Shown one piece after another: positions 17,001 through 64,000 of a stretch of DNA of 64,000 nt. Numbering within the stretch: position 1 is the stretch's first letter; every line of letters begins with the position of its first letter. Below the pieces are notes generated by a model. The model was not told where the DNA came from. It searched no databases and saw only the letters and a list, made by a program, of their open reading frames with translations. This stretch comes from Limnoperna fortunei (taxonomy: Eukaryota > Mollusca > Bivalvia > Mytilida > Modiolidae). The stretch spans positions 85,201,756-85,265,755 of the forward strand of contig OX104112.1 of assembly GCA_944474755.1 (NCBI GenBank), in the 5' to 3' direction. A program made the position numbers and the translations under genes.

Positions 17001-20000
17001 GTCGGGGGTTGTCCGGCTTCAAACCCCAAATAAAAAGGGCACGCAATCTGAAAAATTGCTTAAAATGGGGGACAAACGATAATTATTCGCAATCGTCCAA
17101 GAAATATACATTTGATGAAAATTGTAGAGAATTATAAAATCGTTGAAAGCAATACTGTATTTGAAGACAATGTACGTATAAATCACCCGCTGTGTTTTGC
17201 AATATGAATATATAACTTAATTTCGCTAAATTTCTGAAAACTAAGATATCTTGTATTTTGCCAAGTCAGGAGGTCTTGCAAATAAACCAAGACTTTTATC
17301 AGACTATATTCTCCATTCGTTGCCAGATGATATTAATTAGACTAATTACTACTTGTTTCATTCTATTTTGAAAAGTTCTTAGAAGATCCGTACACACTAG
17401 GGAAAATACTTATAAAGAACAATATTTTACGGAACCCTGAACTCAAATATAAGATATTTTCAGACTAATAACAAATCGTGTGTGTAAGCAATTTTTATCA
17501 TGTGGTAGTTCTACAATATATATTTACAAGGAAAAAAAGGAATGGATGTCGAAGTGACACAAATAGAACACGCATTCTATTACCGACATTTGCGAGACCT
17601 ATTAAAGCACAGATACTAGTATATTATTTTTTACCATTTCATGTGTCTTTCCGACTATGTCTATTAATGTCTATATAAAGGCAGAAACAAATGTCTAAAT
17701 TACACTGACTGTTGCTTCAAGTGACAACTCAATCCAGGATGCTATTTAATCAACACAGGGTGATCACAACCCAGGATGCTATCCAATTCACTTGGTATGA
17801 CAACTTAACCTGCTTTGCTATCAAATCACCAGGTGTTGACAACATAACGCCCTATGCTATCCAATCATCAGGGGCTGCAACCTATCTCAGGATGCTGACC
17901 TTTCACCAAGGGGTGACAACATAACCCCGTATGCTATCCAATCATCATGGGCTGACAACCTAACGCAGGATGCTATCCAATCATATGGTGGTGAAAACTT
18001 AACACCGTATGCTATCTTATCACCAGGGGGTGACAACTGAACACCGTATGCTATCCAATCACCAGGGGTAACAACCTAACCCAAGATGCTATCAAATCAC
18101 CGGGGGAGGGGGGTGACAACTTTACATCGTATGCTATCCAGTCACCAGTGGTGACAACCTAAACCAGGATACTATCAAATCACCAGGCAATCGGAACATC
18201 TCTCGGCCATTTCCGTCAAGGGTCGGGAAAGTGACCTCGGATGTAAGTGATCTCCATTTTGAACTATTTTCAGTGATTTCAAAGAATTTGTTACGTCACA
18301 AGTTCGTTTGTGACGTTTCAGTTCATTCATTGATTGGCTTGTCATTGACGTCTAGTTGATTGTTACGAATGACGTCAGAATGTAAACAAATACTTATCCA
18401 TTTAAACGTTGATTGAGAAGGAATTTTTTGGCAGTGTTAGCGAATTTAAGTTTACAAAATACAACCTTCTATCCGATTTTTAGTTCTTCTTCGATAAAGA
18501 TCTGTTTAGTTGAATAATTCAAGGATAATCTATTTCATCGCACTAAAATAATGTTGTTGTGTAAACAGGCTAACCGTATCACATTTGGACCGATTGTTTG
18601 GTCTATATCCATACACTTACCTCCGAGATTACTTTACGACCATAGGCGGAAATAACCGAGGTGATCCTATTGATCAGCAGGTAGTGAAAACTTGACCCGG
18701 GATGCTATCCAATCACCAGGAGTTACAATCTAATCCAGGATGCTATCCAATCACAAAGGGATGGCAACTTAACGCGAGATACTTCAAAATTATCATGGGT
18801 GAAAACCTTACTCGGGATGTTATCTACTCACATGGAAATGACCACTTAACACGGGGTGCTATCTAATCACTTGGGGATGACAACTTTTTATTAACAGTGC
18901 AAATTCATAAATGTTTATTCCTATTTATAAAATATGACGTGTAAATTTGCAGTTCAAAATAATACCCACTGATAACAGATAGGTTAATTATGTATCATTT
19001 ATGAGTGTCGTGAAAGGACGCAGTTTTTGTGGACATTTAATATGGAATCCCAATCTATAAACTAATTTAATATTTAAAAAAATATTTAAATAACACTCGC
19101 CATTATATTGTCGTATTTTGCCTATTAAATACTGAAAATGTTTTTTTTAATACTCTTAGTCATCTAATTCTGATTACACGAGTTTCCTCTGATTTATTAA
19201 CTAAGTACATATGTATATGATTTACCTAGAATGTATTAAATCAACGTAGGTGTAATAAAGACGGATCAAAGTCAAAGACTCATTGGTACCTATGTTTATT
19301 TATGACAAAATTTATTTACATAGAGATAAGGTAAATCACCCGGTAACTCACTTGTTTTATATTGACACTAACGTTGATAGGTATCTGGGTTAAAATTAAT
19401 GTGATGCAAATCTATTAAAATGTCATTAAAAGTTTAAAGACTTACTGTTTACAAAATTTTAAACTCAGGTAAAGCTCTGGGGAATGTCATTAGCGCTGTG
19501 ATTTGATCACTAGAATGTTTTGTAAGCAAAATAAAGAAATGGGTTGATCGCCTGGACGATTGCTTTGCGTCCAGCGACCTGTTAATTCAGATATATTCAT
19601 GACGCGAATACGTTAACAACCATTTAATGACGTCCTTATAACGTCTATCGATATCTTACCCGATATATCCCCGCTTCGCACACGAGCAACGCGACGCAAT
19701 CTATTTAAAATTAAATCTTTCACTTGCTCCACATTTTTGTTATTGGTTGTTGCGTTGTACCATAGCAAAAAGGGGGGAGCAAGTGAAAGATTTAATTTTA
19801 ATTAGATTGAAGGCGACGTAACGTCACAAGAGGTTTTACGACGTCAAATACGAAATATCGAGGGCACTTTATGGTAAAATATTCGATAGATGTTTTGTTA
19901 AAGTGTATTTTATCCACCGTACATTGCAAACTTGAAGGATTTCTTTACCACGTATTTTTTACCATGAAAATGGCGACTAGAAAATCACTTATACGGCTCG

Positions 20001-29000: not shown

Positions 29001-32000
29001 ATTCTGGATGGGAGTTTACGTACGAAGATAACATTACTCCCCAGGATGACGAGGACAAAAATAAAAAACATTTCGTAGAGGTGGAACTTAAAAGACCTAA
29101 AACGCCCCAGTAAGACAATAAATCTATGGTGATGGGGTAGCAATGAAAAAATGTCCACGTTGAACGGGATGTGCATTTTATTGTGACAATGAATTTGCAC
29201 TTATTGATACATGTAGCACGTATAGGGTATATGCACATTTTGTCAAATTATAACTTATGACTATAGTGTTTAATCAGGCGGGATAAAACTTTCATTCACA
29301 TAAAAAATTCTTCATTTTTCAGACTGTATACATTGCTTATTTGAAGTTGAAGAGCAATTTAAGTTTTAAAGAAATCATTAAAATTAAATTAAAGCTGCTT
29401 TTTACCTCAAGCCGAAGTAATAAGAAATAAAGCCCTCTCGTAGACATTACTTAACATTATAAAACACCTTATACTATAGGTACAGTTATTAATACTGGTA
29501 TGTCCACCACGGACTTTAATGAAGGGAAATTTTATACGTTATTAGACAGACACGAGCTTAATTAAAATAACTTTTACACGAGATTGCACATAACTTACAC
29601 AATCACTATGGTCACCGCCATATTAATTTAAAAGTCCAAATCAATATTTAATTTTAAAAGCTTTAAGAATGATGTCATTCAAATCAGATTAAATGAGATT
29701 TACATGTATATCCAAGACTGACCAATATTTGTATTACATTCGGTCATACTTTAGACGAATGGGATGACATACATTTTGTTAATGTGTTAATGCGCTACAG
29801 ATTTATGGAATGTTTTTGTAAGTTTCCTTTTTAAAAATTTAGTTCGTTACAATTTCGTATCATCTATGAAACATAAGCAAGCCAAGTTGTGAAATTTATA
29901 AAATAATATACGGTAAAGAATATACGTAATGGTTCAGGTAACCAGTGTCGGAGAAGTATAACTTTTACATATTTATGGTGATATTATCTAGAATTGCAAA
30001 TGGAAAGCGTTTTAATGTCAAATAATAGCATGAATAGTTGTAAATATAAGTCTGAGCATGCGTAAGATATTACAATCATGTTATCTGCAAATGTTTAAAC
30101 ATATTTCTTTAGGAGACAGACCGGAAAAGCAACTTTGCTTATTTCTGAATCATAATTTTTATAATTTTTAAAACTGTTTTATGTAATCCTGTATGATCAT
30201 GCTTGTGTTACGTAATAAATATGTTTACACCACGTTTAAGGACATTATAGTATTACTTTATTTTTAAAGTGTGTTTTTCTACAACTCGACACTATTTCCT
30301 TTAATAATCGTTATTTCAACCTCGAAATATTTTCTTTTACCAGCCAGCTGTAGTGTCAAAGAAAATGTACTGACTATGGTTAAAGATTTAACCTTTTTCT
30401 TTTTTAGACCAGATATTGACGGTAATATGAAGAACAAACAAATATCCAACTCTTGGAGTGTGGGTATTAATTCAACACAGAAAGATCTTTTGGACGATGA
30501 CGCTCAGTAAGTATTCCTTCTAGATTCTTTTTAAAGCAGACAATTTATGAAAAAATCGTAGTAGAATATGCTTATGGTGCCTATTGTCTATATTCTGTCG
30601 CCTAATTATTCCCAAATTCTATCTCCTATTTCAAGTTTTTGTTTATTATCTGTTTGCAAATTTTTACATTTATAGTTTTATATTTATTTGAACCGGAACT
30701 GTTGTATTACTTAAGCAATGCCCAATGAATTGGTACACTATCAAGGTATAATCTTTGTAAGTGCTATTTATGTCCACGTTACTTGTTCACAGCTTGAAAG
30801 TAAGCTACACCCCGGGTAAGAAAGGAGGAAACTTTGGACTTCCACTCGGAGCTAAGCTTACGGTGCCAGAAGGATTATTTGGCAAAAAGGATTCAATTTC
30901 ATGTCAAGTTGCTCCACCTTCTCAGCGGTGGCGACACTCTCCAGTGTTGCCTTATTACGAACACTTAACAAGTGAAATATTCATACTGAATTCATCAGTC
31001 CATCCACTGAAGAAAAATGTGATAGTACGAATTCCTTATTACCAGATTGACTCGGAACATAACGAGATAAATGTTAAAGGGAAGTGGAAGGATGAGAATG
31101 AATGGGTCAATGTCGGATTCCTTCACAAGGTAACGTTTGACAGACAATTCTAGTCAAGCACCAATTGTAACAATAATTATGTCTTTTCTATTTTAATAAT
31201 AATAATAATAATAATAGTAATAACAACAATAATAATAACAACAACAATAATAACAACCACAACAATAAGAATAACAACAATAATAATAATATTAATTATG
31301 ATGATGATGTCCTCGTGCTTCTGAAATTACATTGATAAATTGTTAAAGGAAGCAAAGATTTTTATGGTGTGTAACTATTATGCTATAATTTAATGGTGCA
31401 AATAACAGAGCAGAAGTAATTATAATTATCGTAATTGCCAAAGAATAGCTAATTAAATACAACAACACGACATGACACGGATATGCAACCATTTACAATT
31501 TTAAAGCACTATCCATTAAAAAAATCGGACCATAACTTTTTCTTCAGCTCTTAATATATCATATCTTCACCCCTTGGTCTTTATAGATGTAATAAACAAA
31601 ATGACTTGTCGAAACAATAAGATTTTCTGACATCCGGAACCCCTGTTGGTTTAAAACGGTTTAAAATTGAAAATGTAGTTAATGAAGGATATATCTATTT
31701 TTGTATTTAGAACAAACATATTTTTGCTATATCTGTATATTATTTGTAAATAAATTACAAACAGATTCAATATATTAAGCCCTTTGTTATGTATGTAAAT
31801 TGGCGGCTTGTTATTACAACGCACCTGCTTTCCCTTTAACTAAAAACGATTGTTTTGTTCACAGACAGACACGGCCTCCCCTTGTATAGAGTTAGAAATA
31901 GACCGTCTTGGAGTGTTTATAGTCACATTTACTCCTAAGAAAGAAACATTTGAAGTCACAACACAAGGGTGTTTGTATAACGCACATATAAGCAAGTACA

Positions 32001-35000: not shown

Positions 35001-38000
35001 ATGTACATGTACAATCTAAATGAGGAAAATATGTCATTAAATTTAGAAAAATAACTATGTATTGCCTGAAAATGCTAAACAATGATATATAATGAGGTCC
35101 ACTTTCAAATCATACAGTAAGCATCTACAAATAAATAATACAGTTTTAAACAAATGGTTTCCTAATTCTTCAATAAAATAAATTGGCTCGGGCATTATCA
35201 ATGTTTCAGGCAATACCACTGTCCCGAGTGCAGTCAAGATATCACGACAATGCCTTCTATATAAGCAACTATTGTATAAGCATAACACAGGGTGTGACTT
35301 TTAATACAGACAGATTTTAAAAATTTTTTGAAAAAACAGGTATTATTGGTGAACTTACATTAGAAGTACTTCTATTATTTTGTAATCTTTTTTCCAATTG
35401 AAGGTGTTTTCAGGTTATTATTACAATACTGTTTTTATAATTTGAAATATGGAAGGGGTTTATGTGTATCATGGTACATATCAGTATTGTACCAACATGT
35501 GCATTCATATTGCACTTACAAAGCTGACCTTAGACGGTGTAAAGAAAAAAACATGTTTTAAACAAATTATACACAGTAAGATAGTTCATACTGCATTTTA
35601 TTTTAGATTTTGTGTTATGAAATCTAAGCCTGATCGGAAGAAAAGAATGGCTGCAGCTGCTGGTATCTTAGAAGGTCGATGTGAAATGGAGAAAGGCGAT
35701 GTAATGGCTTTCGTAAATTTTCAGGAAAAAATGTGGTATTTGGTGCTTGAATGTTTTCCTAAAAGTAAATTGGACACAAAAATTGCCGAAATGAAGGAAA
35801 AAGGCTTTCGGCATTACAAAAAAGAAATCATGCGACCAGAAGAACCTGTGGATAACAAACAACATTTTAGGAGACCACCTCCAATTAAATCTAAAGTTCA
35901 AGGTACACCAACTGAATTTGAAATATTTGATGGAATGAAATGGACATTCAATGTTTCTGATGATATTAAAGCAAGTTTAGATAGTGACTATATGGACAAC
36001 AAGGACTTGCAATATTATAAGCATTTACCTGAAAGTTTACGCAAATTTGTCATAGAACCAAAAACAACAGAAGAACGGACATTAATTGGTGCAATAAACC
36101 TCACCCCAGTTGGTGTAAATGATCAAAAAATTAGGGAATCTGCATCAATGTCGCTAAGAATTGAAATAGACGAAGAGGTGGTCAGAGCATACTTCAAAGA
36201 AGACCCTATACCAGAAGAACCGGAAGTGAAAAAAGAAAAACTAAATCTAGACCTCCTAAAAACACCCGAAATAAAAGTAGATAAACCCGTAGTTCCTTCA
36301 ATACCAAAATTTAAACCATTACCTCCTTCAGTGATGGAACGTTTGATGAAAACAAGCCGTCCACAGATTATTAGTATGTATTCTTTAGTTTCTGATATCA
36401 GAATATATAATTATTTCTGAAATCTTAAAAAATATTACAGAGATTATTTTTCTTCTATTTAAAGCACATTTATAAAACGGATATTATTTCCATAAAAGCT
36501 TTCCTAGGAGTTGAGTATGTTTAATGCTTAGTGATTGAAGAGAGTAACCAAGCCAGTCCGTTGTACTGGATTATGTACTGGGGAACCATGTCTACATTTC
36601 AAATTGTGCATCAAACCAACATTACATTTAGTATTAAGTTTTAATACTTTTGTAGATCGAAGACTAGGTAAATGTTTGAGTTAGATGCCAGTATACATAA
36701 TTGAAATTAGAGCTTTATTTTGCTGTTTTTATTATTGTATATTTTGTATAGTCTGCGTGATTTCATTGTATTATGTAATGATATTATGTTTAATTTTTGC
36801 TTTTTTACATTATTCATCATTTTTTCGTTTATTTTACTTATGTTGCATATATTTTCATTTATATATACAGATATTTTTTTTTATTTTTTACTTATTTATT
36901 ATCTGAAGAAATTAAAAACCGTTGCAATGATAAAGATGTGTACAAGGCGTTTTCTTTGACATGTTGTCACTTGTACTAAATTTGAAAATTAGTATGCTAC
37001 ATATTCGTGCAGGATGCTTCCGTTTACACGATTTTGCATTAATATACTATAAAGTTTGACATGTAATTATTATTTTAAACTGGCAAGTTTTGGCTCGTTT
37101 TATATCAGGAGTTTCATTGTTCGATAGGTATTTTAAATGCAAGTTTGTATTTAGTTCGTACAAAAAAGTTGCATGTCGGTCGCATGTTTTACTGCTTTAT
37201 GTAGATTCACATCTCCGCCATTATATTATTCAATTGGTATAACCATGTCACATCATATAGTGTGATATACACATTATACGTACGCATGTAAACATAAAAC
37301 CAAATTTGATGTGTAAAAACATACGGTCAGTTTTCAGATTTTCATATTAAAATACTGTTTGGTAATTAGACAAATAATAGGAACACGCAGTATCCAATTG
37401 AATATCACACGATAAATACACAAGTCATGTTTGGAGATATACTATTTCGTATTTTTAAATGGGGGTTTAAACAGCGGTAGCGTCATATGTAATAGAATCA
37501 TTCATGCTAATTGTACATTTACATATTAACTGTAAGCTATGATCACAGAAAACTGTTGTGAACATCGGGGTACAATGAGAAATGTTTTAAAGGTTCTAAG
37601 CTATTTACTAAGCAAAGCGCGTTTCGTATCATCAGACCTCATATATGGCGCTCAAACTAAAACTTAAATTCCTAATAATGTAGACTTTAAGAGCTTCACA
37701 AAAATTACCAAATCCTGCAGTTGGCCATTTACACCTTTGACCATAAACCGTTGATAAATTAAAATATAAATAAATGTATAGATAGTTCTATGTTTTAAAC
37801 GGCATCATGTTTTCTATTCGCAGTCGAAAAAGAATCAAAGGCGATAACTGGAAGAAGTCTACGTAACCTGTCTCGATATGTACCCGAAGGGTTGACGCTG
37901 GCTGTACATCTAGACCTGCCAGACAGTACCATTACTGGTCTTGGCTTCGATGCAATATCAAATGGATTGTCAATGGCGGATGTTACTTACAAAATTTTAT

Positions 38001-38173
38001 TATATTGGAAACGAACGAGAAAAGATAAAAAGGATGCTGCAGTTGAAATGTTAGCAGGAGCCCTTCGGGAGATGGGGCGGCTTGAGGCAGCTAATGTGGT
38101 GTTTCAGTGTCACAAGGACAGCAAAGAAATAACGCCAGAAGCGTTCACAAAAATCATTTCCCAGATGTCTTGA
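10726..38173 (+). CDS. ZU5-ZU5-UPA-like-death-domain protein, multi-exon gene
   Basis: Predicted cytosolic adaptor with the C-terminal architecture shared by PIDD1, UNC5 proteins and ankyrins. Common exons 30408-30506, 30793-31129, 31865-32056, 32399-32733, 35607-36373 and 37824-38173 join with exactly matching phases. In the 790-aa form starting at 10726, residues ~138-270 form a ZU5-like fold (GGNFGLPLGAKLTVPEG), ~271-410 a second ZU5-like unit, ~425-590 a UPA-like segment, ~590-670 an acidic/proline linker and ~680-765 a death domain (LDLPDSTITGLG, ADVTYKILLYWK). No signal peptide, membrane segment, leucine-rich repeats or ankyrin repeats are visible, and the HFS autoproteolysis motif of PIDD1/UNC5CL is absent. 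Other first exons would give 705 or 732 aa. The role (apoptosis or innate signalling) is inferred from domains only; the UPA assignment is the weakest. Confidence 0.88.
11019..11814 (+). other. Start of intron after exon A
   Basis: AT-rich intron sequence leading into the 27-bp minisatellite. No exon is identified. Confidence 0.5.
11815..12925. repeat. 27-bp minisatellite, about 40 copies
   Basis: Consensus CCTCACCTATAGACCACT followed by CGGACACTG. Because 27 is divisible by 3, one frame stays open for stretches (nine-residue unit ASPIDHSDT, for example 12048-12284), but substitutions and indels break it elsewhere and no splice sites bracket it. It is read as intronic minisatellite, not as a protein. 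Confidence 0.9.
12926..17704. other. Gene-free intronic tract
   Basis: No exon or RNA gene is recognised. A SINE core relic lies at about 16985-17100 (GGTCGGGGGTT, CAAATAAAAAGGGCACG, TGAAAAATTGC). The short open frames here lack codon or splice support. Confidence 0.5.
17705..18187. repeat. ~38-bp minisatellite, first part
   Basis: Degenerate units with the phrase AGGATGCTATCCAATCACCA then GGGGTGACAACCTAAC. The array stops at an inserted element and resumes at 18673. Confidence 0.85.
18188..18672. mobile_element. 485-bp terminal-inverted-repeat element (MITE-like) inside the minisatellite
   Basis: The two ends are inverted copies over about 60 bp: CAATCGGAACA..CTCGGCCATTTCCG on the left against the complement CAATAGGATCA..CTCGGTTATTTCCG on the right. 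The match continues inward through GGTCG.GAAAGT..(C/T)CTCGG.(T/G)GTAAGTG. It interrupts the 38-bp array. Flanks ATCACCAGG (18179-18187) and ATCAGCAGG (18673-18681) may be an 8-9-bp target duplication, though the array itself could explain the likeness. No transposase is present. Confidence 0.8.
18673..18890. repeat. ~38-bp minisatellite, continuation
   Basis: More diverged units (GGATGCTATCCAATCACCAG, GGGGATGACAACTT) of the array interrupted at 18188. Confidence 0.8.
18891..19697. other. Gene-free intronic tract
   Basis: AT-rich; no exon, RNA gene or clear repeat is recognised. Confidence 0.5.
19698..19808. mobile_element. Small inverted-repeat element (hairpin)
   Basis: Arms 19698-19730 and 19776-19808 are inverted complements over 33 bp with one mismatch (GGAGCAAGTGAAAGATTTAA core), enclosing a ~45-bp loop. 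It could be a tiny MITE remnant or an RNA hairpin source. Confidence 0.75.
19809..24719. other. Gene-free intronic tract with a dispersed repeat
   Basis: 20265-20460 is a diverged match to 50007-50132 (shared ACGTTACCCACTAT / GCTTTACCCACTAT and CTGTGGGTCGA.CACT.GGAA), so it is a dispersed repeat of unknown class. Near 21374, 21458 and 21523 the phrase CA(C)..CGG.TCAAATG recurs three times. No gene is recognised. Confidence 0.45.
24720..25400. repeat. Degenerate tandem repeat, units ~55-65 bp
   Basis: Recurring phrase GACTGTACAGATGTTGGT then AATGGTTAAGG.GGGAAGTG, at least eight diverged units. An open frame at 25246-25431 arises from it and is not considered a gene. Confidence 0.65.
25401..26175. 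other. Gene-free intronic tract
   Basis: AT-rich, with no recognised feature up to the SINE target duplication at 26176. Confidence 0.5.
26189..26459 (+). mobile_element. Full-length tRNA-derived SINE with target-site duplication
   Basis: The head is GGGGCCTCGGTGGCCGAG with box A TGGCCGAGTGG and box B GGTTCGATTCT (Ser/Leu-type tRNA pattern). A central conserved core follows (CCGGCTTCCTCCCCCAAT), then GTGGCGTTAAAACACC and an (AAAC)n tail. A 12-bp duplication, CATAATTAATAG, lies at 26176-26187 and 26460-26471. The intact head, tail and duplication indicate a fairly young insertion. Confidence 0.93.
26472..27363 (+). other. Gene-free tract upstream of first exon B
   Basis: No exon is recognised. 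The 3' end of this interval contains the candidate TATA box that would drive first exon B. Confidence 0.5.
27364..27371 (+). promoter_or_regulatory. Candidate TATA box for first exon B
   Basis: TATAAAAG in a GC-richer setting (GGGCGTG before, CCCATG after). An initiator-like TTCAATAC lies about 30 bp downstream, near 27393. It is 264 bp ahead of the exon B ATG. Several upstream ATGs lie between, so a 5' UTR intron or leaky scanning is possible. Confidence 0.5.
27635..27672 (+). CDS. Death-domain gene, first coding exon B
   Basis: ATG with A at -3, 12 codons (MSQSKTKQRESK) plus two bases, donor AA|GTAAGT, phase 2 exit identical to exons A and C. It gives a 705-aa protein with a minimal basic N-terminus. 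Confidence 0.65.
27673..28990 (+). other. Intron between first exons B and C
   Basis: AT-rich, no exon recognised. An acceptor-like ATTACAG|G at 28978 precedes exon C, but its use leads at once to an in-frame TAA or TGA in every possible joining with A or B. Confidence 0.5.
28991..29109 (+). CDS. Death-domain gene, first coding exon C or cassette exon
   Basis: ATG (MRIHSGWEFTYEDN) in good context, 119 nt, donor CCCA|GTAAGA, phase 2 exit. A TAA lies four codons upstream in frame, which favours a true start. Alternatively an AG at 28994-28995 would make a 114-nt phase 2-2 cassette spliced after exon A or B, but that acceptor lacks a pyrimidine tract. Confidence 0.6.
30408..30506 (+). CDS. Death-domain gene, common exon 2
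   Basis: Acceptor TTCTTTTTTAG, 99 nt, donor CA|GTAAGT, phase 2 in and out. It encodes PDIDGNMKNKQ and an Asp-rich end. Being symmetric, it could be skipped without frame change. Confidence 0.85.
30793..31129 (+). CDS. Death-domain gene, ZU5 exon
   Basis: Acceptor TTGTTCACAG, 337 nt, donor AAG|GTAACG, phase 2 in and 0 out. It encodes the ZU5 start (GGNFGLPLGAKLTVPEG) and the strands to VNVGFLHK. Confidence 0.9.
31130..31864 (+). repeat. Intron with (AAT)n/(AAC)n microsatellite
   Basis: An imperfect trinucleotide tract of AAT and AAC units spans about 31190-31290 and ends in GATGATGATG. The rest of the intron is featureless. Confidence 0.85.
31865..32056 (+). CDS. Death-domain gene, exon spanning ZU5-1/ZU5-2
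   Basis: Acceptor TTGTTCACAG, exactly 64 codons, donor CAG|GTATGT, phase 0 both sides. It encodes LGVFIVTFTPKKE and YISIRVPKKAAD. Confidence 0.88.
32399..32733 (+). CDS. Death-domain gene, second ZU5-like exon
   Basis: Acceptor ATTTTTCAG, 335 nt, donor AA|GTGAGT, phase 0 in and 2 out. It encodes KRAVSVKLPLPANVE and ends YDVYVKTTSHLYY. Confidence 0.88.
32973..34441. mobile_element. 1.47-kb fold-back element in intron
   Basis: Very long diverged inverted repeats. The left arm (~32973-33520) matches the complement of the right arm (~33855-34441): CTTAA.ACCAATT.TCC ends, GACATGACATGTCTCAG, TGACCATTGGA, GTTTGTTATGATT, TGCCATGGTAAC, and the inner ATCTCAATGGGGTAA and GGTTACCATGGTAA. The ~330-bp centre contains repeated CAAGGTCAAGGTCA and GACCTTGA phrases. 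There is no transposase frame. It lies between the second ZU5 exon and the UPA-like exon. Confidence 0.88.
34442..35606 (+). other. Intron tract with a short hairpin
   Basis: GAGGGCATTA and TAATGCCCTC at 34917-34947 form a perfect 10-bp stem. A related, longer phrase ending TGCCTTC..AAGCAAC lies near 35190-35275. No exon is seen before the TTTTATTTTAG acceptor at 35606. Confidence 0.5.
35607..36373 (+). CDS. Death-domain gene, UPA-like and linker exon
   Basis: 767 nt, phase 2 in and 1 out, donor A|GTATGT. The open frame extends upstream and downstream, but the phase and acceptor fix the start at 35607. Content: EGRCEMEKGDVMAFVNFQ, a long beta-rich stretch, then an acidic/Pro linker (FKEDPIPEEPEVKKEK, PKFKPLPPS). 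Confidence 0.88.
36374..37823 (+). other. Last intron of the death-domain gene
   Basis: AT-rich, with T-rich runs near 36680-36900 that create spurious hydrophobic frames. No feature is recognised. It ends at CTATTCGCAG. Confidence 0.6.
37824..38173 (+). CDS. Death-domain gene, terminal exon
   Basis: Enters in phase 1 and ends at TGA 38171-38173, encoding 115 residues. The death-domain pattern is clear: a leading RNLSRYVPEGLTLAVHLDL helix, ITGLGFDAI, ADVTYKILLYWKR and LAGALREMGRLEAANVV. A decayed copy of this exon lies at 51958. Confidence 0.9.
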
Positions 38174-52695: not shown

Positions 52696-52713
52696 AACAA
52701 GAATTAAAAATAA

Positions 52714-53332
52714 TGTGCTGGGATGCCAACACAGAAGTCGCCCAAAATCCCCATGGATAGTATTGCGTTCCACTCAGGACATTAAGATGTACCTACATAT
52801 AAAATTTCATTCAAAACGGACCACGTTTAACATTTGACGTTTTTTGGCGGCCATTTTGAAACGCCAGGTGGAAAAAAAATTCTGAATTTGAATTGCCACT
52901 CGATACACCTAAATCCACCTCCACACCAAAGTTTGTTGCAATCGGAGCACTGAAAATGTCATCGAGATCGCATAACGTTGAAAATTATACACGTTTTTGG
53001 TGACCATTTTGAAACATGAAGTCGGAGAAAAATTTAAAGGTAGCATTTCACTCGAAATACTAACATCTACCTCCATACCAAATTTCGTTGAAATCGGACC
53101 ACGGAAAATTTTTTGCCATTTTTGGGTGGGTGTCGTCAAGTGGCGGCCATTTTGAAATGGCGGCCTTTTTCAAAATTCTGACTATTGATTGCACCCCTTC
53201 ATATGCCGATGTACAACTGTGCCAAGTTTTATTTGATTCGATTAAGGCGTCTCTGAGAAATGTGGCGGACAAGTTCACGGTCTAGAAAAAGTGGAAACCG
53301 AAATAATAATAATAAAAATAATAATAAAATTT
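52714..53332 (-). mobile_element. Hairpin-ended element W1 (left end and body)
   Basis: Left-end hairpin TGTGCTGGGATGCCAACACA (52714-52733), then the terminal repeat AAGTCGCC (52735-52742) and a ~600-bp body of four CCAAATTTC.. / GGCGGCCATTTTGAAA monomers, ending GTGGAAACCGAAATAATAAT. Element A1 is inserted in this (AAT)n tract. The expected W-type right end is not found; 55042-55072 occupies its place but is A-type. Confidence 0.75.
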
Positions 53333-55017
53333 ACGTTTCCCGAAACGTTGAAGTCGCCTCCCGTTCCGCACTTTTGACCGAGTAGAGGGAACTAAAAGTC
53401 AAGAGCACAACTTCATAACATGAGCTTTCAGTTGGCCAAGTTTCATTTCGATCGGTTAAAAGATGAGCGAGAAAACGAGCAAACTTTAAAACGGCCGCCA
53501 TTTTGAAACCGGAAGTCGGACAAAAAATTTTTTTTGCAAAAATGCTCAGGATAGTTAGCTGTATCAGTATACCAATTTTCATTGAAATTGCTCTGGCCAT
53601 AACTGAGATCTGACAACGGCCGCCATTTTGTAAAACTTTAAAACGGCCTCCATTTTGAAACCGGAAGTCGGACAAAACATTTTTAAATAGTGGCACACTC
53701 AGGGTATCATAAGCTACCTGTATACCAAATTTCGTCTAAATCGGATGACGTTTAAATTTTTACATTTTTAGGGGGGTGGTGTTCGGATGGCGGCCATTTT
53801 GAAATGTCGGCCGCGTCAAATTTTTTTTTGCAAAAATGCTCGGGATAGTTAGCTGTACCAGTATACCAATTTTCATTGTAATTGCTTTGGCAATTACTGA
53901 GATCTGACAACGGCCGTCATTTTTTTCAACGGCGGCCATTTTGAAAATGGCGGCCATTTTGAAAATTTCAAAAGTGGATTGCACAACTTCAAGTCACCCT
54001 TAACATGTTCCCAAAGTTTCATTTCGATCGGTTAAAAGATGAGCGAGAAAACGAGCGGACAACATTGCGAGGGGAAAACATAAGAAATATGAAAATAATA
54101 ATAATAATAATTAAAATTTACGTTTCCCGAAACGTTGAAGTCGCCTCCCGTTCCGCACTTTTGACCGAGTAGAGGGAACTAAAAGTCAAGAGCACAACTT
54201 CATAACATGAGTTTTCAGTTGGCCAAGTTTCATTTCGATCGGTTAAAAGATGAGCGAGAAAACGAGCAAACTTTAAAACGGCCGCCATTTTGAAACCGGA
54301 AGTCGGACAAAAAATTTTTTTTGCAAAAATGCTCAGGATAGTTAGCTGTATCAGTATACCAATTTTCATTGAAATTGCTCTGGCCATAACTGAGATCTGA
54401 CAACGGCCGCCATTTTGTAAAACTTTAAAACGGCCGCCATTTTGAAACCGGAAGTCGGACAAAACATTTTTAAATAGTGGCACACTTAGGGTATCATAAG
54501 CTACCTGTATACCAAATTTCGTTTAAATCGGATGACGTTTAAATTTTTACATTTTTAGGGGGGTGGTGTTCGGATGGCGGCCATTTTGAAATGTCGGCCG
54601 CGTCAAATTTTTTTTTGCAAAAATGCTCGGGATAGTTAGCTGTACCAGTATACCAATTTTCATTGAAATTGCTTTGGCAATTACTGAGATCTGACAACGC
54701 CCGTCATTTTTTTCAACGGCGGCCATTTTGAAAATGGCGGCCATTTTGAAAATTTCAAAAGTGGATTGCACAACTTCAGGTCACCCTTAACATGTTCCCA
54801 AAGTTTCATTTCGATCGGTTAAAAGATGAGCGAGAAAACGAGCGGACAACATTGCGAGGGGAAAACATAAGAAATATGAAAATAATAATAATAATAATAA
54901 TAATAAGAAACGGAGTAAAAACAATAAGTCGCCCGACACTTCGTGGTCGGCGACTTAATAATAATAAGAAACGGAGTAAAAACAATAAGTCGCCCGACAC
55001 TTCGTGGTCGGCGACTT
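53333..55017 (-). mobile_element. Hairpin-ended element A1, hosting A2
   Basis: Left-end hairpin ACGTTTCCCGAAACGT (53333-53348), terminal repeat AAGTCGCC (53351), ~770-bp body, (AAT)n, then the nested A2, then the right tail AAACGGAGTAAAAACAATA and right hairpin (54987-55017). The open frames at 53331-53696 and 53760-53984 are products of the repeat, not genes. Confidence 0.75.
54120..54956 (-). mobile_element. Hairpin-ended element A2
   Basis: Uninterrupted A-type element: left hairpin 54120-54135, body almost identical to A1, (AAT)n near 54882-54905, tail AAACGGAGTAAAAACAATA, right hairpin 54926-54956 with an ACTTCGT loop. Confidence 0.8.
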
Positions 55018-55041
55018 TATAAGAAACGGAGTAAAAACAAT

Positions 55042-55072
55042 AAGTCGCCCGACACTTCGTGGTCGGCGACTT
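55042..55072 (-). mobile_element. Third A-type right-end hairpin
   Basis: AAACGGAGTAAAAACAATA plus the same hairpin as 54926 and 54987. It has no A-type left partner in the window and takes the place of the W1 right end. It may reflect tail duplication or gene conversion. Confidence 0.7.
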
Positions 55073-57444
55073 AATTAAAAATAATGTGTTGGGATGCCAA
55101 CACAGAAGTCGCCCAAAATCCCCATGGATAGTATTGCGTTCCACTCAGGACATTGAAATGAACCTACATATCAAATTTCATTAAAATCGGACAACGTTTA
55201 AAATTTCACCCGTTTTTGGCCGCCATTTATGGAAACCACGGCCGAGAAAAAATTTCGAATGTAGAGTTCCACTCGGGACACTTAAATCTACATCCACACC
55301 AAATATCATTGCAATCGGAGCACGTTAAATGTCATCGAGATCGCATAACGTTGAAAATTATACACGTTTTTGGCGGCCATTCTGAAACCGGAAGTCCGAG
55401 AAAAAATTTAAAGGTAGCGTTTCACTCGAAATACTAACATCTACCTCCATACCAAATTTCGTTGAATTCGGACCACGGGAAAATTTTTGCCATTTTTGGG
55501 TGGGTGTCGTCAAGTGGCGGCCATTTTAAAATGGTGGCCATTATCAAAATTCTGACTATTGACTGCACCCCTTAATATGCCCATCTACAACTGTGCCAAG
55601 TTTCATTTGATTCTATTAAGACGTCTCTGAGAAACGTGTCGGACAAGTTCACGATCTAGAAAAAGGAGAAACCGGAATAACAATAATAATAATTAAAATT
55701 TACGTTTCGCGAAACGTGAAGTCTCCCAAACGAAGTTACTGATAGTCCTGTGCAGCCTGTGAATCACCTTATATTTGACTTTACAGGTTGCTATTCACCT
55801 AGATTTCAAATTCTAATAAAATTGAAAAAAATGGTAAATTTTCAAATTTTACTGGTATTCTGTTGACACAGACATGTTTCACCTGTCCCACATGAACGTT
55901 GTTGATTTTTTGCCGATTTGGCAACTTCGGCGGCCATTTTACAAAAAATAGCGCGTATTAAAAATTCTGAGTTGACCATTGAACTCGACATGCTAAATTT
56001 ACTTTAGGAACCAATTTTCATTGAGTTCCGACAATGTTGAATTTTTGCCGATTTGGCGACTTTGGTGGCCATTTTTTAAAAAATGGCGGGTCGTATAAAA
56101 AATCTGAGTGTACCGTTGAACTCGGCATACCAAATTTACTTTTAGAACCTATTTTCGTTGAATTATGACAATGTTGAATTTTTGCCCATTTGGCAACTTT
56201 GGCGGCCATTTTACAAAAAATGGCGCGTCGTATAAAAATTCTGAGTTGACCATTGGACTCGGCATACCAAATTTACTGTTAAAACCCATTTTCGTTGAAA
56301 TCCGACAGACTTGAATTTTTGGCGATTCGGCGGCCATTTTGAAAATGGCGGCCGGTTCGCGCGCGATTTTTTGCCAAAAATAAATCAAGACCACTATGCT
56401 GAACCTACATACCAAGTTTCATCGAAATCCATCTGGCGGTTCTCCGGGAACTGCATTTTGGCGGGAAAACTTAAATGGCGGCCATTTTGAAAGTGGCGGC
56501 CATCTTGGAAATTCCGAAAGATGATTGCACATCTAGCCAATAGGGTCTAACATCCTACCAAGTTTCAAATTGATCCCATTTACGGTTTCTGAGAAAAGTG
56601 TCGGAAATCTCTACGGGGAAACCAGAAGAAGAATAATAATAATAATTAAAATTTACGTTTCCCGAAACGTTGAAGTCGCCTCCCGTTCCGCACTTTTGAC
56701 CGAGTAGAGGGAACTAAAAGTCAAGAGCACAACTTCATAACATGAGCTTTCAGTTGGCCAAGTTTCATTTCGATCGGTTAAAAGATGAGCGAGAAAACGA
56801 GCAAACTTTAAAACGGCCGCCATTTTGAAACCGGAAGTCGGACAAAAAATTTTTTTTGCAAAAATGCTCAGGATAGTTAGCTGTATCAGTATACCAATTT
56901 TCATTGAAATTGCTCTGGCCATAACTGAGATCTGACAACGGCCGCCATTTTGTAAAACTTTAAAACGGCCGCCATTTTGAAACCGGAAGTCGGACAAAAC
57001 ATTTTTAAATAGTGGCACACTTAGGGTATCATAAGCTACCTGTATACCAAATTTCGTCTAAATCGGATGACGTTTAAATTTTTACATTTCTACGGGGGTG
57101 GTGTTCGGATGGCGGCCATTTTGAAATGTCGGCCGCGTCAAATTTTTTTTTGCAAAAATGCTCGGGATAGTTAGTTGTACCAGTATACCAATTTTCATTG
57201 AAATTGCTTTGGCAATTACTGAGATCTGACAACGGCCGTCATTTTTTTCAACGGCGGCCGTTTTGAAAATGGCGGCCATTTTGAAAATTTCAAAAGTGGA
57301 TTGCACAACTTCAGGTCACCCTTAACATGTTCCCAAAGTTTCATTTCGATCGGTTAAAAGATGAGCGAGAAAACGAGCGGACAACATTGCGAGGGGAAAA
57401 CATAAGAAATATGAAAATAATAATAATAATAATAATTAAAATTT

Positions 57445-59433
57445 ACGTTTCCCGAAACGTTGAAGTCGCCTCCCGTTCCGCACTTTTGACCGAGTAGAGG
57501 GAACTAAAAGTCAAGAGCACAACTTCATAACATGAGTTTTCAGTTGGCCAAGTTTCATTTCGATCGGTTAAAAGATGAGCGAGAAAACGAGCAAACTTTA
57601 AAACGGCCGCCATTTTGAAACCGGAAGTCGGACAAAAAATTTTTTTTGCAAAAATGCTCAGGATAGTTAGCTGTATCAGTATACCAATTTTCATTGAAAT
57701 TGCTCTGGCCATAACTGAGATCTGACAACGGCCGCCATTTTGTAAAACTTTAAAACGGCCGCCATTTTGAAACCGGAAGTCGGACAAAACATTTTTAAAT
57801 AGTGGCACACTTAGGGTATCATAAGCTACCTGTATACCAAATTTCGTTTAAATCGGATGACGTTTAAATTTTTACATTTTTTGGGGGGGTGGTGTTCGGA
57901 TGGCGGCCATTTTGAAATGTCGGCCGCGTCAAATTTTTTTTTGCAAAAATGCTCGGGATAGTTAGCTGTACCAGTATACCAATTTTCATTGAAATTGCTT
58001 TGGCAATTACTGAGATCTGACAACGCCCGTCATTTTTTTCAACGGCGGCCATTTTGAAAATGGCGGCCATTTTGAAAATTTCAAAAGTGGATTGCACAAC
58101 TTCAGGTCACCCTTAACATGTTCCCAAAGTTTCATTTCGATCGGTTAAAAGATGAGCGAGAAAACGAGCGGACAACATTGCGAGGGGAAAACATAAGAAA
58201 TATGAAAATAATAATAATAACTAGTGCTGATTGTGTTGGGATGCCAACACAGAATGTCTCCCAAACGAACCCCCATTGCCACTATAATCCTTATGGATAG
58301 TATTCATTCAAATCAGTACATTAAAATATGCCTAGAAATCAAATTTTGTTGAAATCGGACAAAGTTGACTTTTTCCTGCAGTAAAATGGCCGCCATTTTG
58401 AAACCGGAAGTCAGACAAAAAATTTGTAAATAGTGGCACACTCAGAGTATCATAAGCTACCTGTATACCAAATTTCGTCTAAATCGGATGACGTTTAAAT
58501 TTTTGCATTTTTAGGGGGGTGGTGTTCGGATGGCGGCCATTTTGAAATGTCGGTTGCGTCAAATTTTTTTTTGCAAAGATGCTCAGGATAGTTAGCTGTA
58601 TCAGTATACCAATTTTCATTGAAATTGCTTTGGCAATTACTGAGATCTGACAACGGCCTTCATTTTTTTTCAACGGCGGCCATTTTGAAAATGGCGGCCA
58701 TTTTGAAAATTTCAAAAGTGGATTGCACAACTTCAGGTCACCCTTAACATGTTCCCAAAGTTTCATCTTGATTGGACCTAGAAATCAAATTTTGTTGAAA
58801 TCGGACAAAGTTGACTTTTTCCTGCAGTAAAATGGCCGCCATTTTGAAACCGGAAGTCGGAGAAAAAAATTTTAAATAGTGGCACACTCAGGGTATCATA
58901 AGCTACCTGTATACCAAATTTCTTCTAAATCGGATGACGTTTAAATTTTTTCATTTTTAGGGGGGTGGTGTTCGGATGGCGGCCATTTTGAAATGTCGGT
59001 CGCGTCAAATTTTTTTTTGCAAAAATGCTCAGGATAGTTAGCTGTATCAGTATACTAATTTTCATTGAAATTGCTTTGGCAATTACTGAGATCTGACAAC
59101 AGCCGTCATTTTTTTTCAATGGCGGCCATTTTGAAAATGGCGGCCATTTTGAAAATTTCAAAAGTGGATTGCACAACTTCAGGTCACCCTTAACATGTTC
59201 CCAAAGTTTCATCTTGACTGGACATTGCATCTCTGAGAAAATGTGCGGACAAGATTGAACGGAAAGAAAAAAGAAAGAAAGAAAGAAAGAAAGAAAGAAG
59301 AAGAATAATAATAAGAAACCGGACAAAAACAATATGTCTCCCAAAACTTCGTTTGGGAGACATAATAATAATAATAATAATAAGAAACGGAGTAAAAACA
59401 ATAAGTCGCCCGACACTTCGTGGTCGGCGACTT
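57445..59433 (-). mobile_element. Hairpin-ended element A4, fourth level
   Basis: Left hairpin 57445-57460 and a body nearly identical to A2. Interrupted by element E. Right hairpin 59403-59433 of A type. Confidence 0.75.
58232..59363 (-). mobile_element. Hairpin-ended element E, innermost
   Basis: Uninterrupted 1,132-bp element. Left hairpin TGTGTTGGGATGCCAACACA (58232-58251), terminal repeat ATGTCTCCCAAACGA (58254-58268), whose exact complement forms the right arm of the hairpin 59334-59363. The body contains a ~450-bp internal duplication (58380-58760 and 58820-59210), then (GAAA)n, (AAT)n and the tail AAACCGGACAAAAACAATA. Confidence 0.82.
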
Positions 59434-59632
59434 AATAATAATAATAAGAAACGGAGTAAAAACAATAAGTCGCCCGACACTTCGTGGTCGGCGACTTAAT
59501 AATAAGAAACAGAGTAAAAACAATAAGTCTCCAAACTTCGTTTGGGAGACTTAATAATAATAAGAAGAAGAAACGGTGCAAACACAATAAGTCGCCAAAA
59601 CTTCGTTTTGGGCGACTTAATAAAACATGATT

Positions 59633-60650
59633 ATGATCTTATGGATCATAACTGGCTCCCAAACGACCCCCGTGGACACTGGAGTTCAGACATCCATTCA
59701 CAGCAACTTTATCTACCAGGAAACCAAGTTTCGTTCAAATCGGAGCATTTTTCTACTTTTTTCGGCCATCTTGGATTCAAAATGGCTGCCATAATTCAAC
59801 ATGTGCGTCATATGGTGCGGTATAACATACTCTACTTATATCCCAATTTTCAGCGAAATCTGTTTACTTTTGGACTTTTAAGGATTTTTTCATTTCAAAA
59901 CGGCCACCATTTAAGATGGCCGCCATGACCAAATTCATATTTTGATGACTAACATCTGATCGCAACATGGTAATCTATCTAAAAGCCAAGTTTCGTGCTA
60001 TTCCGAGCATTTTGCATTTTTGGCGGCCATCTTGGATTCAAAATGGCCGCCAAAAAGGTCGACATGGGAGGCATATGGTGCGGTATAACATACCCTACTT
60101 ATATTCCAATTTTCATCGAAATCCGTTAACTTTTGGATTTTTAAAGATTTATTATCATTTTCAAAATGGCCGTCATTTTAAGATGGCCGCCATGATCGAA
60201 TTCAAATTTTGATGACTAAAATCAGATCGCAACATGGTAATCTACCTAAAAAACAAGATTCGTGCGATTCCGACCATTTTGAATTTTTGGCGGGCATCTT
60301 GGATTCAAAATGGCCGCCATAAAAACTCAACATGTGCGTCATATGGTGTGGTATAACATACTCTAATTATATTCCATTTTTCGTCAAAATCCGTTAACTT
60401 TTGGATTTTTAAGGATTTTTTTCATTTTCAAAATGGCCTCCATTTCAAGATGGCCACCAATTTAAAAATTTTAAACCTGAAAAGCACCACTTCACATCAT
60501 GACCTTTTTTTGTGTGAAGTTTCATTTGGATCCAATTTACGGTCTCCGAGAAAACACCCGGACAAAATTCTGGCAGAAAGTGGAAGAAAAAAAAATAAGA
60601 AGAAACGGAGCAAAAACAATATGTCTCCCACACTTTCGTTTGGGAGCCAT
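59633..60650 (-). mobile_element. Hairpin-ended element D
   Basis: Left hairpin TATGATCTTATGGATCATA (about 59632-59650), then TGGCTCCCAAACGA. The right hairpin 60621-60650 ends TCGTTTGGGAGCCAT, carrying the same private GAGCC variant. The body is three ~290-bp repeats (CATATGGTGCGGTATAACAT; CATCTTGGATTCAAAATGG) and the tail is AAACGGAGCAAAAACAATA. Confidence 0.8.
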
Positions 60651-60671
60651 AATAATAATAATTAAAAATAA

Positions 60672-61296
60672 TGTGTTGGGATGCCAACACAGAAGTCGCC
60701 CAAAATCCCCATGGATAGTATTGTGTTCCACTCAGGACACCTATACATCATATTTCATTAAAATCGGACAACGTTTAAAATTTGACGCGTTTTTGTCGGC
60801 CATTTTGAAACACCAGGTGGAAAAAAATTCCGAATTTGGATTTTCACTTTGGACACTTAAATCCATCTCCATACTAAATTTTATTGCAATCAAAGCACTT
60901 TAAATGACATCGAGATCGCATAACGTTGAAAATTATACACGTTTTTAGCGGCCATTTTAAAACCCGACGTCGGAGAAAAAATTTAAAGGTAGCATTTCAC
61001 TCGAAATACTAACCTCTTCCTCCATACCAAATTTCGTTGAAATCGGACCACGGGAAAATTTTGGCTATTTTTGGGTGGGTGTAGTCAAGCGGTGGCCATT
61101 TTGAAATGGCGGCCATTATAAAAAATCTGACCATTGACTGCACCCCTCCATATGTCGATCTACAATTGTGCCAAGTTTCATTTGATTCTATTAAGGCGTC
61201 TCTGAGAAATGTGTCGGACAAGTTCACGATCTAGAAAAAGTTGAACCAAAATAGGTGCAAAACAATAAGTGCCCAAAACTTTGTTTTGGGCGACTT
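60672..61296 (-). mobile_element. Hairpin-ended element W3, uninterrupted
   Basis: Complete 625-bp W-type element: left hairpin 60672-60691, AAGTCGCCCAAAA, four monomers, tail AATAGGTGCAAAACAATA, right hairpin 61267-61296 ending TTTTGGGCGACTT. It serves as the empty-site reference for W1, W2 and W4. Confidence 0.82.
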
Positions 61297-61308
61297 AATT
61301 AAAAATAA

Positions 61309-61922
61309 TGTGTTGGGATGCCAACACGAGGTCGCCCACAATCCCCATGGATAGTATTGCGTTCCACTCAGGACATTGAAATGAACCTACATATCAAATT
61401 TCATTAAAATCGGACAACGTTTAAAATTTCACCCGTTTTTGGCCGCCATTTTGGAAACCACGGTCGAGAAAAAATTTGGAATGTGGAGTTCCACTCGGGA
61501 CACTTAAATCTACCTCCACAGCAAATTTTATTTCAATCGGAGCACGTTAAATGTCATCGAGATCGCATAACGTTGAAAATGATACACGTTTTGGCGGCCA
61601 TTTTGAAACTGGAAGTCCGAGAAAAAATTTAAAGCTAGCGTTTCACTCGAAATACTACCATCTACCTCCATACCAAATTTCGTTGCATTCGGACCACGGG
61701 AAAATTTTTGTTATTTTTGGGTGGGTGTCGTCAAGTGGCGGCCATTTTGAAATAGCGGCCATTATCAAAATTCTGACTATTGACTGCACCCCTCCATATA
61801 CCCATCTACAACTGTGCCAAGTTTCATTTGATTCTATTAAGGCGTCTCTGAGAAATGTGTCGGACAAGTTCACGATCTAGAAAAAGTGGCAACCGAAATA
61901 ATAATAATAATAATTAAAATTT
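61309..61922 (-). mobile_element. Hairpin-ended element W4, right end not seen
   Basis: Left hairpin 61309-61328 (one mismatch), W-type body to GTGGCAACCGAAATAATAAT. A5 is inserted in this tract. No W-type right end follows within the window. Confidence 0.75.
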
Positions 61923-62732
61923 ACGTTTCCCGAAACGTTGAAGTCGCCTCCCGTTCCGCACTTTTGACCGAGTAGAGGGAACTAAAAATCAAGAGCACAA
62001 CTTCATAACATGAGCTTTCAGTTGGCCAAGTTTCATTTCGATCGGTTAAAAGATGAGCGAGAAAACGAGCAAACTTTAAAACGGCTGCCATTTTGAAACC
62101 GGAAGTCGGGCAAAAATTTTTTTTTGCAAAAATGCTCAGGATAGTTAGCTGTATCAGTATAATACCAATTTTCATTGAAATTGCTCTGGCCATAACTGAG
62201 ATCTGACAACGGCCGCCATTTTGTAAAACTTTAAAACGGCCGCCATTTTGAAACCGGAAGTCGGACAAAAATTTTGAAAATAGTGGCACACTCAGGGTAT
62301 CATAAGCTACCTGTATACCAAATTTCGTTTAAATCGGATGACGTTTAAATTTTTACAGTTTTAGGGGGTGGTGTTCGGATGGCGGCCATTTTGAAATGTC
62401 GGCCGCGTCAAATGTTTTTTTGAAAAAATGCTCGGGATAGGGAGCTGTATCAGTATACCAATTTTCATTGAAATTGCTTTGGCAATTTATGAGATCTGAC
62501 AACGGCCGTCATTTTTTTTTCAACGGCGGCCATTTTGAAAATTTCAAAAGTGCATTGCACAACTTCAGGTCACCTTATTATGTTCCCAAAGTTTCATTTC
62601 GATCGGTTAAAAGATGAGCGAGAAAACGAGCGGACAAAATTGCGAGTGGAAAACATAAGAAATAGGAAAATAATAATGATAAGAAACGGAGTAAAAACAA
62701 TAAGTCGCCCGACACTTCGTGGTCGGCGACTT
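61923..62732 (-). mobile_element. Hairpin-ended element A5
   Basis: Left hairpin 61923-61938, slightly diverged A body, tail and right hairpin 62702-62732. Uninterrupted. Confidence 0.8.
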
Positions 62733-62743
62733 AATTAAAATTT

Positions 62744-63487
62744 ACGTTTCCCGAAACGTTGAAGTCGCCTCCCGTTCCGCACTTTTGACCGAGTAGAGGG
62801 AACTAAAAGTCAAGAGCACAACTTCATAACATGAGCTTTCAGTTGGCCAAGTTTCATTTCGATCGGTTAAAAGATGAGCGAGAAAACGAGCAAACTTTAA
62901 AACGGCCGCCATTTTGAAACCGGAAGTCGGACAAAAAATTTTTTGCAAAAATGCTCAGGATAGTTAGCTGTATCAGTATACCAATTTTCATTGAAATTGC
63001 TCTGGCCATAACTGAGATCTGACAACGGCCGCCATTTTGTAAAACTTTAAAACGGCCGCCATTTTGAAACCGGAAGTCGGACAAAACATTTTTAAATAGT
63101 GGCACACTTAGGGTATCATAAGCTACCTGTATACCAAATTTCGTCTAAATCGGATGACGTTTAAATTTTTACATGGCGGCCATTTTGAAATGTCGGCCGC
63201 GTCAAATTTTTTTTTGCAAAAATGCTTGGGATAGTTAGCTGTACCAGTATACCAATTTTCATTGAAATTGCTTTGGCAATTACTGAGATCTGACAACGGC
63301 CGTCATTTTTTTCAACGGCGGCCATTTTGAAAATTTTAAAAGTGGATTGCACAACTTCAGGTCACCCTTAACATGTTCCCAAAGTTTCATTTCGATCGGT
63401 TAAAAGATGAGCGAGAAAACGAGCGGACAACATTGCGAGGGGAAAACATAAGAAATATGAAAATAATAATAATAATAATTAAAATTT
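62744..63487 (-). mobile_element. Hairpin-ended element A6 (right end beyond window)
   Basis: Left hairpin 62744-62759, directly after the A5 right end. The body lacks ~15 bp at 63174 relative to A1. A7 is inserted in its (AAT)n. Confidence 0.75.
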
Positions 63488-64000
63488 ACGTTTCACGAAA
63501 CGTTGAAGTCGCCCCCCGTTCCGAACTTTTGACCGAGTAGAGGGAACTTTGCAGTTATAAGCTTTAAAAATGTTAAAACTTACTCTACAACCGTACCAAA
63601 TTTCAAAACTTTTCATCGAGCGGTTTTCCCGATATAAGCGATGTCCTAAATTATGACCCTTCAACTTTGAATGGCAACTGTGTCGCGTGCGGGGGTATCT
63701 GTGAAAACGAAAAGTCAAGAGCACAACTGCTCAGAATAGTTAGCTGTATCAGTATACCAATTTTCATTGAAATTGCTCTGGCCATTACTGAGATCTGACA
63801 ACGGCCGCAATTTTGTAAAACTTTAAAACGGCCGCCATTTTGAAACCGGAAGTCGGACAAAAAATTTTTTTTGCAAAAATGCTCAGGATAGTTAGTTGTA
63901 TCAGTATACCAATTTTCATTGAAATTGCTCTGGCCATAACTGAGATCTGACAACGGCCGCCATTTTGTAAAACTTTAAAACGGCCGCCATTTTGAAACCG
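63488..64000 (-). mobile_element. Hairpin-ended element A7, cut by window end
   Basis: Left hairpin ACGTTTCACGAAACGT (63488-63503) and AAGTCGCCCCCCG. The body has a different ~170-bp start (63545-63720) before rejoining the A sequence, which is itself duplicated at 63728-63835 and 63890-64000. Confidence 0.7.

Follow-up and report, generated by a model that had tools for sequence, protein, structure and literature searches.

Hairpin-ended elements serially nested in their own (AAT)n tracts in the genome of Limnoperna fortunei

Helentrons insert into the dinucleotide TT without duplicating it (Thomas et al. 2014, PMC4067079). They and their relatives, the HINEs and DINE-1-like elements, carry a subterminal inverted repeat (subTIR) at both ends, and the 5' subTIR is palindromic and terminal (PMC4067079). 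In Helentrons and HINEs the 3' subTIR is followed by a short palindrome, the target is T-rich and not duplicated and the copies occur in clusters, and the non-autonomous HINEs lack coding capacity (PMC4067079; PMC7492417); the 5' module of the oyster element Cg_HINE stands beside a microsatellite (PMC7492417). FoHeli (Helitron2) of Fusarium oxysporum has hairpins at both ends, asymmetric terminal inverted repeats, one nested case, and several 5' ends on one 3' end (PMC5148889). The papers cited here are represented by excerpts, and what is said of them holds for those excerpts. In this study we describe elements with these features in the genome of Limnoperna fortunei (1,335,373,924 bases in 285 contigs). 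The stretch analyzed, hereafter called the window, comprises 64,000 nucleotides of its contig 2 (OX104112.1, positions 85,201,756 to 85,265,755). Ordered nesting of elements in their own microsatellite, as seen in the window, is not described in the excerpts of PMC4067079 and PMC7492417. In FoHeli nesting is rare and does not occur at a microsatellite, whereas here it is repeated at one internal tract.

The core of the finding is a tower of five elements on the minus strand, of which we read the ends directly from the sequence. The left ends follow one another in the order W, C, A, A, E, and the right ends in the order E, A, A, C, W. That is, they form a bracket of five levels. The outermost element, W2 (55,075-59,618, including all that is nested inside), has its left, or 3', palindrome at 55,085, and its right, or 5', hairpin ends at 59,618. 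The AAT tract of W2 contains C (55,694-59,552; palindrome at 55,702, hairpin ending at 59,552), and that of C contains an outer A (56,647-59,497; palindrome at 56,655, hairpin ending at 59,497). An inner A (57,437-59,433; palindrome at 57,445, hairpin ending at 59,433) lies in the tract of the outer A, and the innermost element, E (58,219-59,363; palindrome at 58,232, hairpin ending at 59,363), lies in the tract of the inner A. The tract of E itself is short and uninterrupted. At the right side, the 5' modules of E, A, A, C and W are stacked at 59,304-59,618 on the same strand with a spacing of 55 to 70 bp, and each of them consists of a hairpin, a conserved GAAAC..AAACAATA segment and AAT. 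A preliminary description of this DNA had claimed this order; all ten ends were found where it had placed them, with the right types mirroring the left ones. The five-level tower it had delimited is real, and it is only part of a larger cluster, which has its left limit at 52,714 and extends beyond the window end.

Each left end consists of a palindrome followed by a subterminal repeat, and each right end is a hairpin of which the closing arm is complementary to that repeat. When this complementarity was scored with +1 for a match and -2 for a mismatch, C had its highest score with C (19) and E with E (16), and D, a further type found outside the tower, scored 14. For W the value was 13, both with its own right end and with another W right end, at 61,296 outside the tower. 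The repeat of type A has only 8 complementary bases, which also fit the W ends, and type A was therefore assigned by the whole hairpin and the body. The corresponding repeats of HINEs, present at either end, measure about 11-15 bp, and the present elements agree with this, type A having only 8.

Read on the minus strand, an element consists of a palindromic subTIR, a GACTTATTGTTTTTACTCCGTTTC-like segment, (ATT)n, a non-coding body, a second subTIR, a palindrome and 10-12 nucleotides. On this reading, the ends previously called right are the 5' ends. The 5' hairpins of the five types fold far better than shuffled sequences (z from -4.8 to -7.7) and stand directly at the tract junction, as the terminal palindromic 5' subTIR of HINEs does at the element's end. 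The HINE palindrome lies 8-35 bp from the 3' terminus; here 10-12 nucleotides separate it from the junction, and the folds of A and C are modest. The 3' subTIR lies 27-33 nucleotides from the 3' terminus in A, C, W and E, in contrast to 38-60 in mite HINEs, and nearer to the 30-40 of FoHeli (PMC5148889). The start of FoHeli, T(c/a)AGTCC..GGACTT, also resembles TAAGTC..GACTT of the present elements (PMC5148889). The microsatellite of Cg_HINE differs in having GTCY-like motifs of 3 to 8 bases where ATT is found here (PMC7492417). No Pfam family was detected in the three longest stop-to-stop frames within or across the elements, which agrees with the lack of coding capacity in HINEs. Canonical Helitrons have TC at the 5' end and CTRR at the 3' end, and insert between A and T. 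Here E is the only type with CTAG at its end, beside TTATT, and no element was seen to start with TC. We also considered a cut-and-paste miniature inverted-repeat transposable element, and rejected it, since the ends are asymmetric (a hairpin at one, a palindrome with a subTIR at the other) and no target duplication was found at a solitary W site. These elements are thus several families with the anatomy of a known kind, the non-autonomous Helentrons (HINEs).

Each of the four elements nested in the tower has AAT units to its left and to its right, and when the insert is removed, the flanking tracts join uninterrupted and in phase in all four. When three other insertions were included, 6 of 7 gave an uninterrupted joined tract; only A in W1, the W copy at the left edge of the cluster, did not. 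This agrees with insertion into TT or T-rich DNA without target duplication, as in HINEs. The distance from the insert to the right terminus of its host was 55-70 bp in six cases, and therefore the target is one small site per host. The earlier claim that every insertion lies in the inner (AAT)n tract of its host holds for the tower and is not general. Of 43 left ends read by position (window cluster, C1 tile and locus L023), an AAT tract surrounds 29, and 11 directly adjoin the hairpin of an earlier copy on its outer side. The remaining 3 are W1 and the solitary W, both of which sit in ordinary host DNA, and the A at 70,146, at an apparently eroded tract.

The solitary W, in L023, measures 687 bp by the boundaries used, has ordinary DNA around it and contains an uninterrupted (AAT)12. 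On the element's plus strand its site reads GTATATTT up to the junction and TATTATC beyond it, with no target duplication. It is a founder-like copy, and W1 likewise sits in non-AAT DNA. A (TAA)n tract of the host in the window (31,194-31,296), about 100 bp long and running in the same direction, contains no element.

We think it probable, with good confidence, that these are non-autonomous Helentron-like rolling-circle elements of the HINE type, belonging to several families, which nest serially and in the same orientation in the (ATT)n that they themselves carry. The 5' end of each element points to the right, with the (ATT)n of its plus strand beside the 5' hairpin. The insertion would take place between T and T without target duplication, the movement being by rolling circle with Rep/helicase supplied in trans. 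(AAT)10 contains no TT on the AAT strand and 10 on the other. Because TT occurs on one strand of (AAT)n only, a new copy would take the orientation of its host, and this may be why the orientation is fixed. Every copy would supply a fresh tract inside which further copies could land, so that matched brackets would grow, and some copies would land just outside a hairpin, where one AAT unit also stands.

The cluster is about 22 kb long and extends from 52,714 to 74,647 (positions beyond 64,000 continue the numbering of the window), that is, 10.6 kb past the window end. All its other elements in the window are also on the minus strand. W1 (52,704-55,072) has ordinary DNA to its left and two A nested inside, and is closed, by position, by a right end of A type. 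The outer of these A lies at 53,325-55,017 (palindrome at 53,333), and the inner one, of which the AAT tract is uninterrupted, lies inside it at 54,112-54,956 (palindrome at 54,120). To the right of the tower, D (59,620-60,650) adjoins the W2 hairpin on its outer side. W3 (60,662-61,296) is uninterrupted and nearly without an AAT tract, and W4 (61,299-64,000; palindrome at 61,309) is open at the window end, with one closed A (61,923-62,732) and two more A left ends (62,744 and 63,488). Allowing up to 2 mismatches, we found 10 copies of the right module in the window (0.02 expected), all at 54.9 to 62.8 kb. When the ends in the window were paired as brackets (as a stack), 10 of the 11 closed pairs matched in type (p = 1.15e-4 against shuffled right-end types) and three left ends remained open at the window end; when they were paired first-in-first-out (as a queue), 5 of 11 matched.

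The same organization was found elsewhere in the genome, of which contigs 1-15 appear chromosome-sized (12 of the 15 were checked) and contig 16 has 42,561 bases. Exact matches number 7,476 for the right-end module (3,601 on one strand and 3,875 on the other; 1 for the reversed-pattern control) and 4,115 for the A left end (2,001 and 2,114; control 0). The following values refer to the 100 matches listed for each pattern, all on contig 1. The right modules form 11 groups, all 89 neighbours within 15 kb are on the same strand, and 41 of the 99 gaps, at 45-100 bp, are as wide as those between stacked 5' modules. As for the A left ends, 85 of the 87 neighbours within 15 kb are on the same strand; 34 spacings are 700-800 bp, which is one A body minus the 5' module, as nesting predicts, and 7 are 801-900 bp, which corresponds to abutting copies. 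On another chromosome, a second cluster (C1:2,442,455, 16.7 kb) showed type matches in 10 of 12 pairs. The test that the preliminary description had proposed, whether right types pair with left types at other loci, gives a mixed outcome here: both misses belong to a new type, X, with a W-like left end, a non-W body and both times an A-type right end. Its claim of serial same-orientation insertion into the (AAT)n of an earlier copy is well supported in the window and at other loci.

This recurrence bears on the explanation that the nests are an assembly artefact. Near-identical repeats are prone to collapse and misjoining, and the nests are known here from the assembly alone; but this organization is repeated elsewhere in the assembly, and every level is distinguished by a type and substitutions of its own. 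We regard an artefact as extremely unlikely.

Other searches gave the following. In random 10-kb stretches (n=16, from C1-C5) there were 10 raw hairpin matches, of which 1 (L022) was judged by eye to be a family member. In a 4-kb stretch (L053), an element of a further type, F, is preceded by three left ends and one right end of type A; any other right ends would lie outside the stretch. At L041 (C1:4113967-4116989, about 400-760), the same stacking is seen in a hairpin family of unrelated appearance, of the form GGTCTTTCC..GGAAAGACC: six hairpins of the right type follow one another, with AAT tracts and a CATAAGAAAG segment between them. The exact right-module pattern matched genome contigs elsewhere in one place (L001) and the hairpin pattern matched viral contigs in one place (L002). 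On reading, both were judged to be chance matches in bacterial and phage DNA, and rejected. The exact right-module pattern had no match in the viral contigs.

Several observations weigh against serial nesting with matched ends. The sole mismatch in the window is the W left end at 52,714, which is closed by the A right end at 55,072; since the body of W1 is genuinely that of a W, with 88-90% identity to other copies of W, this right end is a real exception. The whole cluster has 26 left ends and 24 right ends, and its F elements form two doublets (67,636/68,475 and 72,400/73,376), each of them having two left ends but only one right end. At the right edge, C and two A are closed by W right ends, which belong to a run of four at 74,479-74,647, whereas W makes up 2 of the 5 elements still open there. 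The 3' palindromes fold only modestly (z from -1.0 to -3.0), and those of A and C were equalled by 33 and 32 of 200 shuffles. Near 34.02 Mb of C1, a mixed-strand group of A left ends has two strand changes in about 30 kb. Lastly, comparing guest and host in nine A-in-A pairs of the cluster, the terminal branch of the guest was the shorter in 6, which is not significant.

When each F doublet was counted as one unit, 24 left ends balanced 24 right ends exactly, and 20 of the 24 pairs matched in type; with the F left ends counted separately, 18 of 24 matched and two left ends stayed open. The counting by units was chosen post hoc, after the doublets had been noticed, and the left ends at 52,714 and 63,488 were entered by hand. 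None of 200,000 shuffles reached either score (means of 8.0 with F units and 7.4 separately). A re-parse with other thresholds matched 18 of 23 and missed the right end at 74,530. Type pairing over the cluster is therefore strong, not perfect, and the exact reverse pairing claimed before holds for the tower and not for the whole cluster. The mismatches probably arose when tandem 5' modules underwent exchange or conversion with one another. Such exchange could also explain the runs of identical right ends, and the run of four W ends may reflect conversion.

Exchange of this kind might be thought to account for the whole arrangement, that is, by local tandem duplication and unequal exchange in (AAT)n without transposition. 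Where identical right ends form runs, as the three A at 54,956-55,072 and the four W do, the spacings are indeed 51 to 66 bp, like those of a minisatellite. However, different families interleave in mirror order, the ends balance 24 to 24 with F units, and the same families also occur as solitary copies (L023). The mirror order with distinct types refutes this process as the sole cause, and we consider an origin without transposition very improbable; as a secondary process it is likely.

The nests might instead have been built mainly by homologous recombination between the (AAT)n of a circular copy and an (AAT)n already resident. All copies have (AAT)n in common, end-to-end junctions of a right with a left end, which circles would leave, are present (9 in the window cluster by the cluster parse, 4 of these joining two ends of one type), and a recombination model has been proposed for SaTar elements (PMC5907723). 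Such recombination predicts, however, the order host-left, new-right, new-left, host-right. The types present as single copies show the left end before the right, with matching types (E, D, and 2 of 3 C), as insertion by the element's own termini predicts. We therefore disfavour recombination of circles and hold it to be improbable.

A further question is how many of the nested elements were inserted independently. Composite nests, such as A in A, may have moved or been duplicated as units, in which case insertions were few and the bracket depth overstates them. Comparing the two towers, the inner A copies are nearly identical (1 difference in 760, or 0.13%). In Fusarium, Helitrons with several 5' ends have been explained by self-insertion followed by chimeric transposition (PMC5148889). 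The F doublets with their single right end also fit composite movement; they recall the multiple termini of Fusarium, but at the other end. In contrast, the outer A copies of the two towers differ at 8 of 760 positions (1.05%), and their hosts differ too (W1 and C). Because the outer A copies differ in this way, the A-A unit was not simply copied whole. Movement of the A-in-A pair as one unit, suggested by variants that seemed shared by eye, is unsupported by these differences (1 against 8 in 760). Few insertions with composite movement thus seem possible, though rather doubtful. W copies diverge by 5.1-13.0%, and the decrease from W to outer A to inner A fits an arrangement with older elements outside and younger ones inside. 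The age rank that had been expected from the nesting is accordingly seen in the W, outer A and inner A of the tower, and is not significant in the A-in-A pairs over the cluster.

Microsatellite targeting and clustering are known from other elements. The SaTar elements of guayule and rice, which are non-autonomous MULEs, are short, target microsatellites and form multimers of mixed families, many without target duplication; they differ in being uniformly non-nested and in having MULE termini (PMC5907723). The arrays here nest, unlike those of SaTar, because the microsatellite lies inside the element, and a linear uninterrupted array of the SaTar type was rejected for the same nested structure. 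Maize Helitrons insert near other Helitrons (Yang and Bennetzen 2009, as cited in PMC12477314), and bats and plants have tandem Helitron arrays (PMC5876387). The clustering in maize, bats and plants is alike, but it takes the form of neighbourhoods or of head-to-tail arrays, without matched nesting at a tract inside the element.

The preliminary description had named no family that behaves in this manner. The architecture of the elements turned out to fit Helentrons and HINEs. For Helentrons nesting in their own microsatellite we found no description in the open-access literature; subscription papers and Repbase lay outside that search, and prior notice is possible. Helitron-like elements that disrupt (GAAA)n in Lepidoptera were reportedly the subject of a 2010 paper by Coates et al., to judge from its title.

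Outside the cluster, the window has long tandem arrays at 2,664-3,880 (52-bp unit), 11,821-12,916 (27 bp; open as repeated SPIDHSD-like frames) and 17,768-18,187 (about 39 bp). Frames with ZU5 and Death domains (Pfam) at 30,761-31,150 and 37,799-38,170 are probably exons of an animal receptor or PIDD-like gene.

In these stacks, the nest order gives the relative order of insertion without a clock, and families can be dated against each other. The stacks can also show how rolling-circle elements pick their sites, which has been poorly known so far, and they would confuse repeat annotation and assembly. We give about even weight to the idea that several families share one self-renewing landing pad. 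The 5' (ATT)n would then recruit any family with these ends, insertions would be channelled into earlier copies, the genome outside would be spared, and the stacked 5' modules would become a minisatellite of about 60 bp. The stacks also illustrate how transposon ends can turn into tandem repeats. Should insertion into earlier copies prove to be the rule, these elements limit the damage that they do to the host. If our reading is true, this would be a self-addressed, orientation-fixed accumulation of rolling-circle transposons, a mode not yet described.

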